64,000 nucleotides of DNA from Commensalibacter papalotli (ex Servin-Garciduenas et al. 2014) (GTDB lineage Bacteria > Pseudomonadota > Alphaproteobacteria > Acetobacterales > Acetobacteraceae). A program made the translations under genes and the position numbers. The notes under the pieces were generated by a model. It did no database searches, was not told the DNA's origin, and saw only the letters and a list, made by a program, of their open reading frames with translations. Each line of letters begins with the position of its first letter. Positions within the stretch are counted from its first letter, which is position 1. Of the stretch, positions 46,158 to 52,230 are shown piece by piece. The stretch lies in the NCBI RefSeq assembly GCF_000527695.1, contig NZ_ATSX01000001.1, forward strand, positions 1 through 64,000, written 5' to 3'.

Positions 46158-46505
46158 CTAATTATATTTGAGTGGAAGTGTCAAAATTTGATTACTTCCC
46201 TTCATATAATAATGTTTATTTTGCTTAACTGATTTTAGAAAAATACTAGTTTTACTTTCTTCTAAGTTTAACAATACTGCATGTAAATTGACTTGAGTTA
46301 TATCGAAAATAATTGATGAATATAACTCTATTTCTTGAAGTATTAACAACCTTTTATGCTTCTCATAAATACAAATTATATCAACATCATTAAAAATATT
46401 GGATTTCAATACCGATCCGAAAAGAATAACTTGGTGGCTATTGAATAAAATTCTTTTACCTTCGTTAATAATTCGCATTAATTGCTTAACGTTTTTCTGG
46501 CACAT
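46158..46505 (-). CDS. Minimal nucleotidyltransferase (MNT-like), partner of the HNH protein
   Basis: 115 aa from the ATG at 46505, or 106 aa from the ATG at 46478. The later ATG overlaps the upstream HNH stop codon (TAATG), so it may be the true, translationally coupled start. The pol-beta nucleotidyltransferase motif is complete: G30-S31 in ILFGSV, D40 and D42 in NDVDII, and a third acidic residue at D68 (IIFDIT). Small MNT proteins often act as antitoxins that AMPylate a partner, typically a HEPN toxin; here the partner is an HNH protein. The region is A+T-rich compared with guaA. Confidence 0.75.
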   Translation of the reverse strand: MCQKNVKQLMRIINEGKRILFNSHQVILFGSVLKSNIFNDVDIICIYEKHKRLLILQEIELYSSIIFDITQVNLHAVLLNLEESKTSIFLKSVKQNKHYYMKGSNQILTLPLKYN

Positions 46506-47668
46506 AATTTCGCAAATTGGTTTGTATTAAGAGCTCTGATATTTAAATTTAAGCCATTTAGATACTCTAAAGCTTCAGATGAAAATGGACCACCATTCCA
46601 ATTATGAGTATTAATTATTATTAAATTTTCTTCTGCTTGTAATGTCATAACATCATTTACAGTTATTTCATACTCATACATTAATAGTAGTTCTATTGAA
46701 TCATTCACAAGAATTTTTGTAAAATTATATTGTTCAGGAAAAGCCCAATTATAATATTTGTTTTGAAAGAGTATCTTTAAAATAAAAACTACATCGCTGA
46801 TACGTAATTGTGTTTCTATATTTTTTTGGTAATAAATTTTTTCAGTATATAGTATTTGTTGAAATCTTATTACATTGTCTAAAGTAACTTTTTCTTCTTT
46901 GTTAGATTCATCTGTGTAAATTAAATGTTGTGGTGAGAAAAGACTAAAATCAATTAATCTTTGTTCTTTATCAAGTTTTTTTAATAAATTTTGTAAATAA
47001 GTTAGATTGTTTGTATTTGATTCCTCTGTGATGATTTCTAAACCAAAAATGGTTAGGATTTCCTTTGGGAAAAGTGCTTGTCTTGTAAATATTTCTGGTT
47101 CTCGAGTATTAATAAAATCTTGTTGATGTCGTTCATACAGGTCAATTATATCTCTGAGTTTATTGTTTATTAAATTTATATTGGCTTTTAGTATAGTTAA
47201 TATTATTTCATTATTACTGATGATTTTTGGTTCGAATTGAACCCATGACTTATGTGTCTCTAAGGAAGCCTTCAAACTTTCGGGTCCATATAGATCAAAA
47301 ATATTTTTATTTTCTTTTAAATACGGTATAATATTTTCCTTTAATAAAGCAAATGAGTCGTATTTTTTACAGAAAATTTCTTTTAATTTTTTTTGTCTAT
47401 CTTCTTTCCATTGTAGAAGCTTATTTTCTATTTGCGTATCGTTTTGTCTAGAGGAATCAATGATTTTATGGCAGTTTTTACATAGTAAAATTAAGTTTTC
47501 AAACTCTATACTTCCACCCTTCGCATGCTCTTGAATATGGGCTATATCAGCAACAGATGCTGTATCTGTTATAAGTAACGTATTGCATTCAGGATTCATA
47601 CAAAAACCAAAGGATTCAGCCCAAAGTTGCCTTTGGATATTTTGTGAAATTGGGGGTCTTTTAATCAT
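46478..47668 (-). CDS. HNH endonuclease-domain protein with unknown helical C-terminal region
   Basis: 396 aa. The N-terminal HNH zinc-finger nuclease is intact: C23 and C28 (CMNPEC), H44 as likely general base (IAHI), N58 (FENLILLC), C63 and C66 (LCKNC) and H67. Residues from about 85 are long Asn/Lys/Ile-rich helices I cannot assign. The last 55 residues (LIIINTHNWNGGPFSSEALEYL and on; pattern W.GG..S.EALEYL) faintly resemble the end of Mrr-like restriction folds, but I see no catalytic set. No Shine-Dalgarno precedes the ATG. It forms a two-gene unit with the nucleotidyltransferase, inserted between guaA and nrdA. Confidence 0.8.
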   Translation of the reverse strand: MIKRPPISQNIQRQLWAESFGFCMNPECNTLLITDTASVADIAHIQEHAKGGSIEFENLILLCKNCHKIIDSSRQNDTQIENKLLQWKEDRQKKLKEIFCKKYDSFALLKENIIPYLKENKNIFDLYGPESLKASLETHKSWVQFEPKIISNNEIILTILKANINLINNKLRDIIDLYERHQQDFINTREPEIFTRQALFPKEILTIFGLEIITEESNTNNLTYLQNLLKKLDKEQRLIDFSLFSPQHLIYTDESNKEEKVTLDNVIRFQQILYTEKIYYQKNIETQLRISDVVFILKILFQNKYYNWAFPEQYNFTKILVNDSIELLLMYEYEITVNDVMTLQAEENLIIINTHNWNGGPFSSEALEYLNGLNLNIRALNTNQFAKLCARKTLSN

Positions 47669-47873: not shown

Positions 47874-47902
47874 TTGATTTTGTATCATCATATAGATATA
47901 TA
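47874..47902 (+). promoter_or_regulatory. Putative nrdA promoter
   Basis: TTGATT (47874-47879) and TATATA (47897-47902) with a 17-nt spacer, about 115 nt upstream of the GTG start. One NrdR-like box fills the spacer and the other lies just beyond the expected start point, which is what a NrdR-repressed promoter should look like. Confidence 0.5.
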
Positions 47903-47928
47903 TATTCTTTAAATATACTAGATATAGA
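47885..47928 (+). promoter_or_regulatory. Pair of NrdR-like boxes upstream of nrdA
   Basis: 47917-47928 reads ACTAGATATAGA, a 10/12 match to the palindrome ACTATATATAGT seen upstream of nrdB. 47885-47896 reads TCATCATATAGA, a 7/12 match that shares the half ATATAGA. The centres are 32 bp apart, the usual spacing of tandem NrdR boxes (about three helical turns). Confidence 0.55.
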
Positions 47929-48018
47929 AAATTAACCATTTCATTTAACAATTTATGGTGTATCATTAGGGATAACAAACCCCTAAGCCCTTAATCTTGT
48001 TTTGCGAGGATATGAGAC

Positions 48019-49941
48019 GTGAGTCCTGTTGATGTACTTGAAAAAAAGACCTCTGTAACAGTAAGAAGTAAAGTTGAACAATCCACGTTTGACTTTACTG
48101 ATGCGTTGGCTGGAAACGTTCAGCTTTATGGGCGATATCAGGTAAAACTTAATCATTCTCGTGATGATTTGTTAACCCCTTTTGGTAAAGCGACATTGGA
48201 TGATCGCTATTTGATGGAAGGGGAGTCTTATCAAGATTTATTTGCACGTGTTGCTTCTTATTACGGTAGTGACGCAGGGCATGCACAACGGCTTTATGAT
48301 TATATGTCTCAACATTGGTTTATGCCTGCAACGCCAGTACTATCGAATGGGGGAACTTCTCGTGGTTTGCCGATTTCTTGCTTTTTGAACGAAGCAGAAG
48401 ACAGCCTTAAAGGTATTGTTGAGCTGTGGAACGAAAATGTTTGGCTTGCTTCTCGTGGCGGTGGAATTGGTTCTTATTGGGGGAATCTGCGTTCAATTGG
48501 TGAAAATGTTAAACGGAATGGTAAAACCTCAGGAGTGATTCCGTTTATTCGCGTGATGGATAGCTTAACGTTGGCAATCAGCCAAGGTTCTTTACGTCGT
48601 GGTTCAGCTGCTGTGTATTTGCCCGTTTGGCATCCTGAGATTGAAGAATTTATCGAATTACGTCGCCCTACAGGGGGGGATCCTAATCGTAAAGCATTGA
48701 ATTTACATCATGGTGTATTGGTTTCTGATGCTTTTATGCGCGCTGTAGAGAAAAACGAAGAATGGGCGTTATTATCTCCCAAAGATCAATCTGTGATTCG
48801 TAAAGTTTCAGCACGTTCTTTGTGGATCAGATTGCTAACAACACGTATTGAACAGGGCGAACCATATATTGTTTATTCAGATACCGTTAATAATGCACGT
48901 CCAGAACATCATAAATTAGCTGGACTTGAAGTTAAAACTTCGAATCTCTGTGCTGAAATTACATTACCAACTGGAATAGATCATAAAGGTGAAGAGAGAA
49001 CAGCTGTTTGTTGTTTGTCTTCTTTAAATCTAGAATATTGGGATCAATGGAATAATGTTCCTCAGTTTATTCCAGATGTCATGTTATTTTTGGACAATGT
49101 CTTACAAGATTTTATCAACAACGCGCCAGATGAAATGGCACGCGCTCGTTATGCAGCGTCTCGTGAACGTTCAGTTGGTATGGGCGTTATGGGTTTTCAT
49201 TCTTTCTTGCAAGCCAAGAATATTCCTTTTGAAAGTGCGATGGCCAAAGTTTGGAATAAAAAAATGTTCCAACATATTCGTGCTCAAGCAGATAAAGCCT
49301 CTGTGATGCTAGCCGAAGAACGTGGCCCGTGTCCTGATGCTGAAGATTATGGAATTAACGAACGCTTTTCAAATAAAATGGCAATTGCACCAACGGCTTC
49401 TATTTCTATTATTGCGGGAAATGCCAGTCCAGGAATAGAACCGATTAATGCCAATGTCTTCTTGCAAAAAACATTATCAGGGTCCTTTATCGTGCGTAAT
49501 CGTCATTTGAGAGCATTATTGCAAAGCAAAGGACAAGACACAGATGAGGTTTGGTCTTCTATCACGTTGAACAAAGGCAGTGTTCAGAATTTGGAATTTT
49601 TAACTCAAGATGAAAAAGATGTTTTTAAGACAGCATTTGAACTTGATCAACGCTGGATTATTGAACATGCAGCAGATCGCTCGCCGTTTATTTGTCAGTC
49701 TCAATCTGTTAATTTATTCGTGCCAGCAGACATTCATAAACGTGATTTACATCAAATTCATTATCAAGCATGGAAAAAAGGGGTGAAATCTTTATATTAT
49801 TGTCGCTCATTATCCTTACAACGTGCAGATGACGTCAGTAATGTTGCGGTAAAGATGGATGTTTTATCTCCGATTACGCCATCAACACCAATTGATGGGA
49901 ATACAACGACAGATTATGAAGAGTGCCTATCTTGTCAATAG
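48019..49941 (+). CDS. nrdA: Class I ribonucleotide reductase large (alpha) subunit
   Basis: Reduces ribonucleotides to deoxyribonucleotides with the radical from the beta subunit. GTG start with AGGA 10 nt upstream. Active-site features are PATPVLSNGG, CFLNEAEDSLKGI (reactive Cys), SNLCAEITLP with the radical Cys region, the loop ISIIAGNASPGIEP, paired Tyr in LYYCRS and the C-terminal redox pair ECLSCQ. The 640-aa length and the absence of an N-terminal ATP-cone motif set it apart from long NrdA (about 760 aa). It is not in an operon with nrdB, which lies convergent 3 kb away. Confidence 0.95.
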   Translation: MSPVDVLEKKTSVTVRSKVEQSTFDFTDALAGNVQLYGRYQVKLNHSRDDLLTPFGKATLDDRYLMEGESYQDLFARVASYYGSDAGHAQRLYDYMSQHWFMPATPVLSNGGTSRGLPISCFLNEAEDSLKGIVELWNENVWLASRGGGIGSYWGNLRSIGENVKRNGKTSGVIPFIRVMDSLTLAISQGSLRRGSAAVYLPVWHPEIEEFIELRRPTGGDPNRKALNLHHGVLVSDAFMRAVEKNEEWALLSPKDQSVIRKVSARSLWIRLLTTRIEQGEPYIVYSDTVNNARPEHHKLAGLEVKTSNLCAEITLPTGIDHKGEERTAVCCLSSLNLEYWDQWNNVPQFIPDVMLFLDNVLQDFINNAPDEMARARYAASRERSVGMGVMGFHSFLQAKNIPFESAMAKVWNKKMFQHIRAQADKASVMLAEERGPCPDAEDYGINERFSNKMAIAPTASISIIAGNASPGIEPINANVFLQKTLSGSFIVRNRHLRALLQSKGQDTDEVWSSITLNKGSVQNLEFLTQDEKDVFKTAFELDQRWIIEHAADRSPFICQSQSVNLFVPADIHKRDLHQIHYQAWKKGVKSLYYCRSLSLQRADDVSNVAVKMDVLSPITPSTPIDGNTTTDYEECLSCQ

Positions 49942-49965
49942 ACTTTAATTCTTTGTAATTTTATA

Positions 49966-50001
49966 AAAACCCCTTATCTTTAATTTTAGATAAGGGGTTT
50001 T
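49966..50001 (+). terminator. Intrinsic terminator after nrdA
   Basis: 14-bp perfect stem (49966-49979 AAAACCCCTTATCT with 49988-50001 AGATAAGGGGTTTT), 8-nt loop, followed by TCTTTT. It ends the nrdA transcript 25 nt after the stop, so the next gene (aldo/keto reductase) must have its own promoter. Confidence 0.88.
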
Positions 50002-50056
50002 CTTTTACTCTGATAACTAGAAATATAAAAATTTATCATAATAGAAAGGATAAGAG

Positions 50057-50896
50057 ATGACTGCTATTCCAAAGCTTATTTTGAATGACGGAACGACAAT
50101 TCCTGCTGTTGGATTTGGTACTTACAAGTTAAATGGCAGACAAGGTGCCAAAGATATTGTTAGAGCGATTCATAACGGATATCATTTTTTAGATTCTGCA
50201 TTTAATTATGAAAATGAAGGGACAGTGGGGGAAGCTGTTCGTCAATGTGGTCTTGCTAGAGAGAAAATACAGGTCACCTCTAAACTTCCTGGACGGCATC
50301 ATCAATATGATAGAGCGTTGCTCACTATTGAGGAGTCTTTATATAGAGCTCAATTAGAGTATTATGATTTTTATTTAATTCATTGGCCCAACCCCATTAC
50401 AGGAAATTATGTGGAGGCTTGGCAGGCTTTGATTGAAGCGCAAAAAAGAGGGATGATTAAATCGATTGGAGTATGTAATTTTTTACCAGAGCATTTGGAT
50501 ACTATTATTAAAGAAACGGGAATTACCCCTTGTATTAATCAAATAGAATTACACCCTTATTTTTCTCAAGAAACACAACGTGCTTATAATAAAAAGTTGG
50601 GAATTATAACGCAATCATGGAGCCCAATTGGTAGGGCAAGTAGTATGTTGGAGAATCCAATTATCCAAGAAATTGCCAAGCAACATCAAAGGTCTACCGC
50701 TCAAATTATCTTGCGTTGGCATGTGCAATTAGGGGCTATGCCTATTCCGAAAGCGACCTCTGATGAAAGGCAAAAAAACAATCTAGCATTATTTGATTTT
50801 GCATTAACTGAAGCTGATATGGCCAAAATCAAAGAATTAGACAGGCCTGATGGACGGTTAAAAGATCAGGATCCATCACGATATGAAGAGTTTTAA
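50057..50896 (+). CDS. Aldo/keto reductase (2,5-diketo-D-gluconate reductase type)
   Basis: NAD(P)H-dependent carbonyl reductase with a TIM-barrel fold, 279 aa. Family motifs GFGTYKLNG, the catalytic set D (FLDSAFNYENE, with Tyr), K (TSKLPGRHH) and H (LIHWP), and IPKATSDERQKNN for cofactor binding are present. Acetic acid bacteria carry several such enzymes that reduce keto-sugars, but the real substrate cannot be told from sequence. It is between nrdA and nrdB. Confidence 0.9.
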   Translation: MTAIPKLILNDGTTIPAVGFGTYKLNGRQGAKDIVRAIHNGYHFLDSAFNYENEGTVGEAVRQCGLAREKIQVTSKLPGRHHQYDRALLTIEESLYRAQLEYYDFYLIHWPNPITGNYVEAWQALIEAQKRGMIKSIGVCNFLPEHLDTIIKETGITPCINQIELHPYFSQETQRAYNKKLGIITQSWSPIGRASSMLENPIIQEIAKQHQRSTAQIILRWHVQLGAMPIPKATSDERQKNNLALFDFALTEADMAKIKELDRPDGRLKDQDPSRYEEF

Positions 50897-50913
50897 GATC
50901 ATATAAATAAAAA

Positions 50914-50940
50914 AAAGAGGTTATTTAAACTAACCTCTTT
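50914..50940. terminator. Bidirectional terminator between the aldo/keto reductase gene and nrdB
   Basis: 10-bp perfect stem (50914-50923 AAAGAGGTTA with 50931-50940 TAACCTCTTT), 7-nt loop, flanked by A-run on the left and T-run on the right. Both convergent genes would see a U-tract after the stem. Confidence 0.88.
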
Positions 50941-50949
50941 TTTATAATA

Positions 50950-51963
50950 CTAACCTTCTAAAATCATATCTTCAAACGCATCTTCCCAAGTTCCCTGGGT
51001 TGCAGCACGGCTATATTCAGTAGAGCGGTTTTCAAAGAAATTGGTATGCTCAACTGCGTTTAACATCTCATCCATCCATGGGAGTGGATTTTTATGAATA
51101 TCATAAAGTATATCAACCCCAAGTTGGGTTAAACGACGATTGGCAATGAAACGAATATATTGTTTAACCGTTTCAGCATCTAGACCTTCTACGTCGCCCA
51201 TTTCAAAAGCAAGATCGATAAAAGCATCTTCATGTTCCACAATGGTTGCGCAAATATCGCGTAATTCTTGTTGGAATTCAGGTGTCCATAAAGATGGATT
51301 TTCTTGAATAAACGTACGGAATAATTTGATGATGGATAAGCAATGTAAAGTTTCATCGCGCACAGACCATGAAACGATTTGTCCCATTCCTTTAAGCTTG
51401 TTAAAGCGTGGAAAATTCATCAAAATCGCAAAAGATGCAAAAAGTTGTAACCCTTCTGTAAATGCGCCAAATACAGCCATTGTTTTGGCAATTTCATAGG
51501 GGCTATCAACGTTGAAACTCTGCATATAGTCATATTTATCCTTCATTTCTTTATAATTTAAAAATGCAGAATATTCGACTTCTGGCATGCCAATTGTATC
51601 CAAAAGATAACTATAAGCAGCAATATGAATCGTCTCAATATTAGAAAATGCAGCAAGCATCATCAGAACTTCAATGGGTTTAAAGACCTGACTATAATAT
51701 TTCATATAGACATTATTAACTTCAACGTCTGACTGGGTAAAAAAACGAAAAATTTGTGTAATCAAATTTCTTTCTGAATCGTTGAGGTTTTTATGCCAAT
51801 CTTTAACATCTTCTGCCAAAGCGACTTCTTCTGGAATCCAGTGAAGGCGTTGTTGAGTTGACCATGCTTCATAGGCCCATGGATAATGAAAAGGCTTATA
51901 AACGGGATTATAAGTCATTAAATTATGGGGTTTCGTGGTGTCTTTTATGTTGTTACTCAACAA
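50950..51963 (-). CDS. nrdB: Class I ribonucleotide reductase small (beta) subunit
   Basis: Holds the di-iron centre and tyrosyl radical. Residues matching E. coli R2 are E110, H113 and radical Y117 in NIETIHIAAY, then the Glu in FTEGLQLF and Glu/His in RDETLHCL, so it is a tyrosyl-radical type enzyme. The frame begins with two adjacent TTG codons (51963 and 51960) directly after AAAGGAG; the second TTG has the better 7-nt spacing. The first ATG (residue 16) has no Shine-Dalgarno, so I favour a TTG start. Length about 336 aa. Confidence 0.95.
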   Translation of the reverse strand: MLSNNIKDTTKPHNLMTYNPVYKPFHYPWAYEAWSTQQRLHWIPEEVALAEDVKDWHKNLNDSERNLITQIFRFFTQSDVEVNNVYMKYYSQVFKPIEVLMMLAAFSNIETIHIAAYSYLLDTIGMPEVEYSAFLNYKEMKDKYDYMQSFNVDSPYEIAKTMAVFGAFTEGLQLFASFAILMNFPRFNKLKGMGQIVSWSVRDETLHCLSIIKLFRTFIQENPSLWTPEFQQELRDICATIVEHEDAFIDLAFEMGDVEGLDAETVKQYIRFIANRRLTQLGVDILYDIHKNPLPWMDEMLNAVEHTNFFENRSTEYSRAATQGTWEDAFEDMILEG

Positions 51964-52095
51964 ACTTCTCCTTTGTGGATCTTTCTTTGGTTATTTATTC
52001 ATGCAACATGGTGAACAACCAAAGAAAAATCAATCTACGAGGGCGTAACTATCGCCAATTGCTTTTATGCTAATGATAAATTATCGGGTAGATAT

Positions 52096-52139
52096 TGTGT
52101 ATATGGTATATAAAATAATGTAAAGATACTATATATAGT
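52096..52139 (-). promoter_or_regulatory. Pair of NrdR-like boxes upstream of nrdB
   Basis: 52128-52139 is the perfect 12-bp palindrome ACTATATATAGT. 52096-52107 (TGTGTATATGGT) is a partial match whose centre lies exactly 32 bp away. NrdR normally binds such tandem boxes to repress reductase genes when dATP is high. They lie about 135-175 nt upstream of the nrdB start and overlap a possible promoter (TTTACA near 52119-52124 on the minus strand). Confidence 0.65.
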
Positions 52140-52230
52140 TTTTATAGGTTTGGGAATATTTATCTGATTGGCCTTCTTTACATGTTTTGCGAATCTTAAC
52201 CTTATGACTATTGTTCTAATTTTAACTTGT

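Follow-up and report, generated by a model that had tools for sequence, protein, structure and literature searches.

The two subunits of class I ribonucleotide reductase are encoded by nrdA and nrdB, and in the 64,000-nucleotide stretch of Commensalibacter papalotli DNA analysed here (contig NZ_ATSX01000001.1, positions 1 to 64,000; hereafter the window) each of these genes is preceded by two A+T-rich boxes lying 32 base pairs (bp) apart. We are highly confident that both pairs are operators of the regulator NrdR, taking binding, repression and the sensing of deoxyadenosine triphosphate (dATP) to follow published work on this protein. On this comparison of sequences, the two subunits are very probably switched together. 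Joint NrdR control of nrdA and nrdB had been proposed in the first-pass annotation of this DNA, and it gains support from the presence of an nrdR gene and from conservation within the genus, with binding itself predicted. The box pairs represent an ordinary conserved control site of a known type, and a well-supported one.

The 16-mer consensus and the 10-mer core with which boxes were scored are those we take to be current in the NrdR literature, in which NrdR boxes were reportedly first described by Rodionov and Gelfand in 2005. Within the genus, taken to be Commensalibacter throughout, we used nine genomes, that of the window (G000) and eight more (G001 to G008). We applied the 10-mer core to the genus and the 16-mer to the wider family, because the 16-mer rates the Commensalibacter nrdA pair poorly: in a C. 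melissae record (L002) it misses the cut with 38 of 200 shuffles, and in G006, seemingly the same record, the nrdA cores match at 18 of 20 positions, a score reached by 0 of 1000 shuffles.

The gene nrdA (48019-49941, plus strand) encodes a catalytic subunit of 640 amino acids with a GTG start codon (NF006577, 1035 bits; Pfam Ribonuc_red_lgC and Ribonuc_red_lgN). Its distal box is predicted at 47883-47898 (plus strand) with the core CATCATATAG at 47886-47895, which is identical in eight of the nine genomes and differs by one change in G001. The proximal box at 47915-47930 (plus strand), 32 bp from the distal one, has the core CTAGATATAG at 47918-47927; seven of the nine genomes have CTATATATAG at this place, and the window's genome and G001 each carry a variant. 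The radical-generating subunit, of 337 amino acids with a TTG start codon (NF007186, 558 bits; Pfam Ribonuc_red_sm only), is encoded by nrdB at 50950-51963 on the minus strand. Upstream of it, also on the minus strand, a strong distal box is predicted at 52126-52141 with the core CTATATATAG at 52129-52138, and 32 bp from it a proximal box at 52094-52109 with the core CCATATACAC at 52097-52106. In three of these four boxes the core is bounded by C and G, the exception being the proximal nrdB box. The perfect palindrome ACTATATATAGT at 52128-52139 upstream of nrdB and the 10/12 match ACTAGATATAGA at 47917-47928 upstream of nrdA, both noted in the first-pass annotation, were reproduced in position and match count, and the 10-mer cores bear out the weaker partner 32 bp away that it had seen at both promoters. 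A possible third nrdA box, CAATTTATGG (47949-47958, plus strand), is degenerate and weak and lies 31 bp further downstream; similar boxes occur at 31 bp in G004 and, with one change, in G002, and at 30 bp in G005.

The genome carries one nrdR gene (G000:C3:724210-724644, minus strand) that scores 157.7 bits against a family cut-off of 124.65. Pfam recognizes the Zn_ribbon_NrdR and ATP-cone domains in its product, and the residues D15, R17 and RRRR are present, which the accessible part of a cryo-electron microscopy study names as DNA contacts (PMC9110341). No good box pair was found in the 250 bp upstream of nrdR, where 542 of 1000 shuffles reach the score of the best pair. This fits the report, in the available portion of PMC5343134, that NrdR has never been found autoregulated in Proteobacteria.

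Most of the weight lies on the comparison across the genus, which settles the NrdR reading in a way that statistics on a single genome do not. The first-pass annotation had pointed to an nrdR gene and to box positions kept in close relatives as the features on which its proposal would stand. The gene is present in one copy above the cut-off, and a pair at 31 or 32 bp precedes nrdA in all nine genomes and nrdB in eight, with G001 as the exception. The DNA further upstream of the nrdA and nrdB pairs has diverged within the genus. In 17 promoters of the nine genomes (all but that of nrdB in G001) a spacer of 15 or 16 bp lies between the 16-mers. Across the corresponding 34 boxes the opening C and the core A-T-A are invariant and the closing G is found in 29, figures that lean toward the motif since the boxes were chosen by resemblance and the nrdB promoter of G001 was left out. 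For nrdB, the partner box lies in register, 32 bp away, both in the genome of the window and in the four nearest to it by NrdB identity (G002, G004, G005 and G007); the pair is nearly perfect (19/20) in G003, G006 and G008.

The best pairs are, moreover, concentrated at reductase genes. Pairs with one mismatch at 31 or 32 bp occur at eight places in the nine genomes and none has fewer mismatches; all eight stand before reductase genes, namely nrdB and nrdD in G003, G006 and G008, nrdB in G002 and a class II-like gene in G001. With two mismatches, 12 of 19 places are at reductase genes, some places sharing a box. The class II-like gene (G001:C4:86560, L155) surfaced through its boxes, class II genes not having been searched systematically; its partial protein scores above the cut-off for the Pfam RNR-II insertion domain and below the cut-offs of the NCBIfam class II models.

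The third reductase gene of the window's genome is nrdD, which has a pair at G000:C4:388277-388318. It is found in five of the nine genomes and is preceded by a pair in all five, each matched by at most 1 of 1000 shuffles, although for G008 the shuffled stretch was placed around an already known pair. Since the nrdD products of G005 and G000 fit different best NrdD models, one kind of operator is common to reductase genes of more than one type. Three in-phase boxes precede nrdD in G005, G006 and G008. The NrdD of the window's genome has an ATP cone (L154), Pfam finds none in that of G006 (L150, read from the first start codon), and box pairs are kept before nrdD in both genomes. Just upstream of the nrdD boxes of the window's genome lies an inverted repeat, GTGATCAAAATCAT (in L154, G000:C4:386800-389800), presumably of the FNR/CRP type, which suggests that nrdD may also be under anaerobic control. 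The nrdD match in G003 (G003:C7:44004-45365) has TAA twice in frame, and G003:C27 carries a further partial copy.

Several observations weigh against NrdR control of both genes, and the first of them concern chance. The TATA-rich boxes could be nothing but promoter -10 elements in A+T-rich DNA that share a spacing by accident, an explanation we consider very improbable. The upstream regions are indeed 69-74% A+T, and the strong nrdB box overlaps the -10-like sequence TATAGT. In dinucleotide shuffles of 250 bp upstream, the core pair score of 17/20 at 32 bp is reached by 9 of 2000 shuffles for nrdA and 8 of 2000 for nrdB (0.4-0.5%), and if the spacing is widened to 31-33 bp by 24 and 10 of 2000, respectively. 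Other spacings score as well or better within this genome: at nrdB a spacing of 41 bp scores 18 and spacings of 13, 18, 23 and 25 bp score 17, and at nrdA 20, 22 and 31 bp also score 17. The 32 bp spacing is therefore fixed only by the relatives, and spacing alone in one genome was dropped as evidence. The argument in the first-pass annotation that equal spacing on both sides is hard to explain by A+T-rich background alone holds only in part, since about 0.4% of shuffled promoters score equally well. Single boxes were set aside likewise, the 10/12 match being weak: 12-mers with up to two mismatches occur eight times in the window against 3.35 expected, and 1 of 100 shuffles reaches eight. A scan for sigma-70-like promoter sites (0 at nrdA against 2.0 expected; 3 at nrdB against 1.9) was uninformative.

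Loose counts of pairs over whole genomes also prove little. With a spacing of 32 bp and at most three mismatches in 20, the pair pattern matches the 2.33 Mb genome at 14 places and its reversed form at 5; three of the 14 are nrdA, nrdB and nrdD, and of the remaining eleven, eight inside open reading frames and three intergenic (L153, L158 and L161), none was accepted as an NrdR target. At 31 bp, however, the same genome has 4 places and its reversed control 4. In the eight relatives the counts at 32 bp are near their controls, slightly above in six and below in two (5 against 6 in G002, 3 against 5 in G007). Even among the pairs with two mismatches, 7 of 19 stand elsewhere than at reductase genes. 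It is the identity of the best matches and not their loose number that carries weight, and the evidence from this genome alone is modest to moderate. Against a chance arrangement stand the pair at 31 or 32 bp kept before nrdA and nrdB in a genus whose DNA further upstream has diverged, the position of every one-mismatch pair at a reductase gene and the retention of nrdA pairs in named relatives, described below.

The remaining adverse points concern nrdB. Its proximal core is degenerate, matching 7 of 10 positions, and has lost the closing G, ending in C; the box is better kept in G002 (CAATATATAC) and in G003, G006 and G008 (CTATATATTG). In G001 no good nrdB pair exists (16/20, reached by 22 of 1000 shuffles), so that it is absent or a relic there. 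One could suppose from this that NrdR effectively controls nrdA alone in this strain, the nrdB operator being in decay. We regard such a decay as unlikely, because the strong box is perfectly palindromic, its partner keeps the 32 bp distance both here and in the four nearest relatives, and three further genomes have the nearly perfect pair. Nevertheless, since the proximal box is without its closing G, it may bind NrdR more weakly in the window's genome. For Streptomyces NrdR, the accessible text of PMC9110341 states that altering conserved GC pairs reduced binding about 50-fold or more.

The predicted sites resemble NrdR operators described elsewhere. According to the available sections of PMC12051234 and PMC9110341, the operators of E. 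coli, Listeria and Streptomyces are likewise A+T-rich palindromes of 16 bp with C and G ends, the ends of the box being named in the latter, and two boxes per promoter lie upstream of reductase genes. The spacer between boxes in these three systems is 15-16 bp, which places their centres about three helical turns apart (PMC12051234, as far as available). In contrast to these operators, nrdA and nrdB are here separate convergent units with a pair each, and in the 34 boxes the 16-mer is poorly conserved towards its ends. A small regulon for deoxyribonucleotide synthesis without autoregulation, as seen here, is also what the accessible part of PMC5343134 describes for NrdR regulogs of Proteobacteria. 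Our literature search returned no paper joining Commensalibacter with ribonucleotide reductase or NrdR with Acetobacteraceae. Consulting PMC3019208, PMC5794259 and PMC12176259 left the assessment as it was.

Following these systems, control would proceed in a few steps. At rising dATP levels, NrdR carrying both dATP and ATP would assemble into a tetramer that holds each 16-bp box with two of its Zn ribbons. The two boxes, three helical turns apart with a 16 bp spacer and 32 bp from centre to centre, would be bound together, and transcription would be repressed. As the genus has nrdA and nrdB in separate, convergent units, each gene has an operator pair of its own, by which both subunits would answer to the same dATP signal; the third pair would extend this control to the anaerobic gene nrdD. 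Since Pfam found no ATP cone in the NrdA or the NrdB of the window, dATP probably limits the aerobic enzyme mainly through NrdR.

The coordinates and strands agree with the first-pass annotation in that nrdA and nrdB are not one operon but converge around an aldo/keto reductase gene; its description of them as unlinked was too strong, as they are convergent neighbours with stop codons 1 kb apart. The aldo/keto reductase gene (50057-50896, plus strand; PF00248) is assigned to its family only, the DkgA model scoring below its cut-off. Terminator-like hairpins follow nrdA (49966-50001, plus strand; 14 bp stem and T run) and separate nrdB from the aldo/keto reductase gene that converges on it (50911-50943, minus strand; 13 bp stem and T run). 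In G001, nrdA and nrdB are about 12 kb apart. Divergent to nrdA, an HNH endonuclease gene at 46158-47668, the N-terminal part of whose product matches defence effectors (best 49 bits), overlaps a small nucleotidyltransferase-like gene; this region is possibly a defence or mobile insert. In G002, one 41-base stretch occurs at ten places and presumably is a repeated mobile element.

In the wider family, named loci were found with NrdB and the best 80 of a longer list were used. The region upstream of nrdA was readable in 58 of them, cut off in 6 and missing in 16 that have no nrdA in the stretch; a pair is present in 51 of the 58 (at most 5 of 200 shuffles reach its score). For nrdB, 300 bp upstream were compared with dinucleotide shuffles at the 77 loci that could be classified; the other three, of which two carry a pair, were excluded because of contig ends. 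Where nrdB follows nrdA within 300 bp, none of 43 loci has a pair of its own before nrdB, nor does any of six with a gap of 301-800 bp. Where nrdB stands apart, 18 of 28 do (8 of 13 with nrdA further away, 2 of 2 in opposite orientation and 8 of 13 with nrdA absent, that is, outside the stretch examined). Pooling the 301-800 bp loci with the split group gives 18/34 against 0/43 (Fisher p 1.3e-8), with the adjacent group 18/28 against 0/49. In a variant of the test with 430 bp and mononucleotide shuffles, one adjacent locus (L013) passes (2 of 200). Of ten independent pairs on supported branches of the NrdB tree, a mean of 4.1 agreed with the association, 0 went against it and 5.9 showed no difference (median p 0.125); the informative pairs thus number only about four, too few to establish the association independently of shared ancestry. 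That an nrdB standing apart tends to have its own NrdR pair is therefore a lead and not a result.

In conclusion, NrdR control is extended to Commensalibacter on good comparative evidence. We tentatively speculate, at less than even confidence, that selection establishes or retains a helix-phased pair of NrdR boxes before nrdB whenever this gene becomes a separate unit in these Alphaproteobacteria, so that duplicated operators would replace the shared messenger in balancing the subunits. The small natural series of nrdAB operon break-ups lets the fate of a two-box operator be traced.

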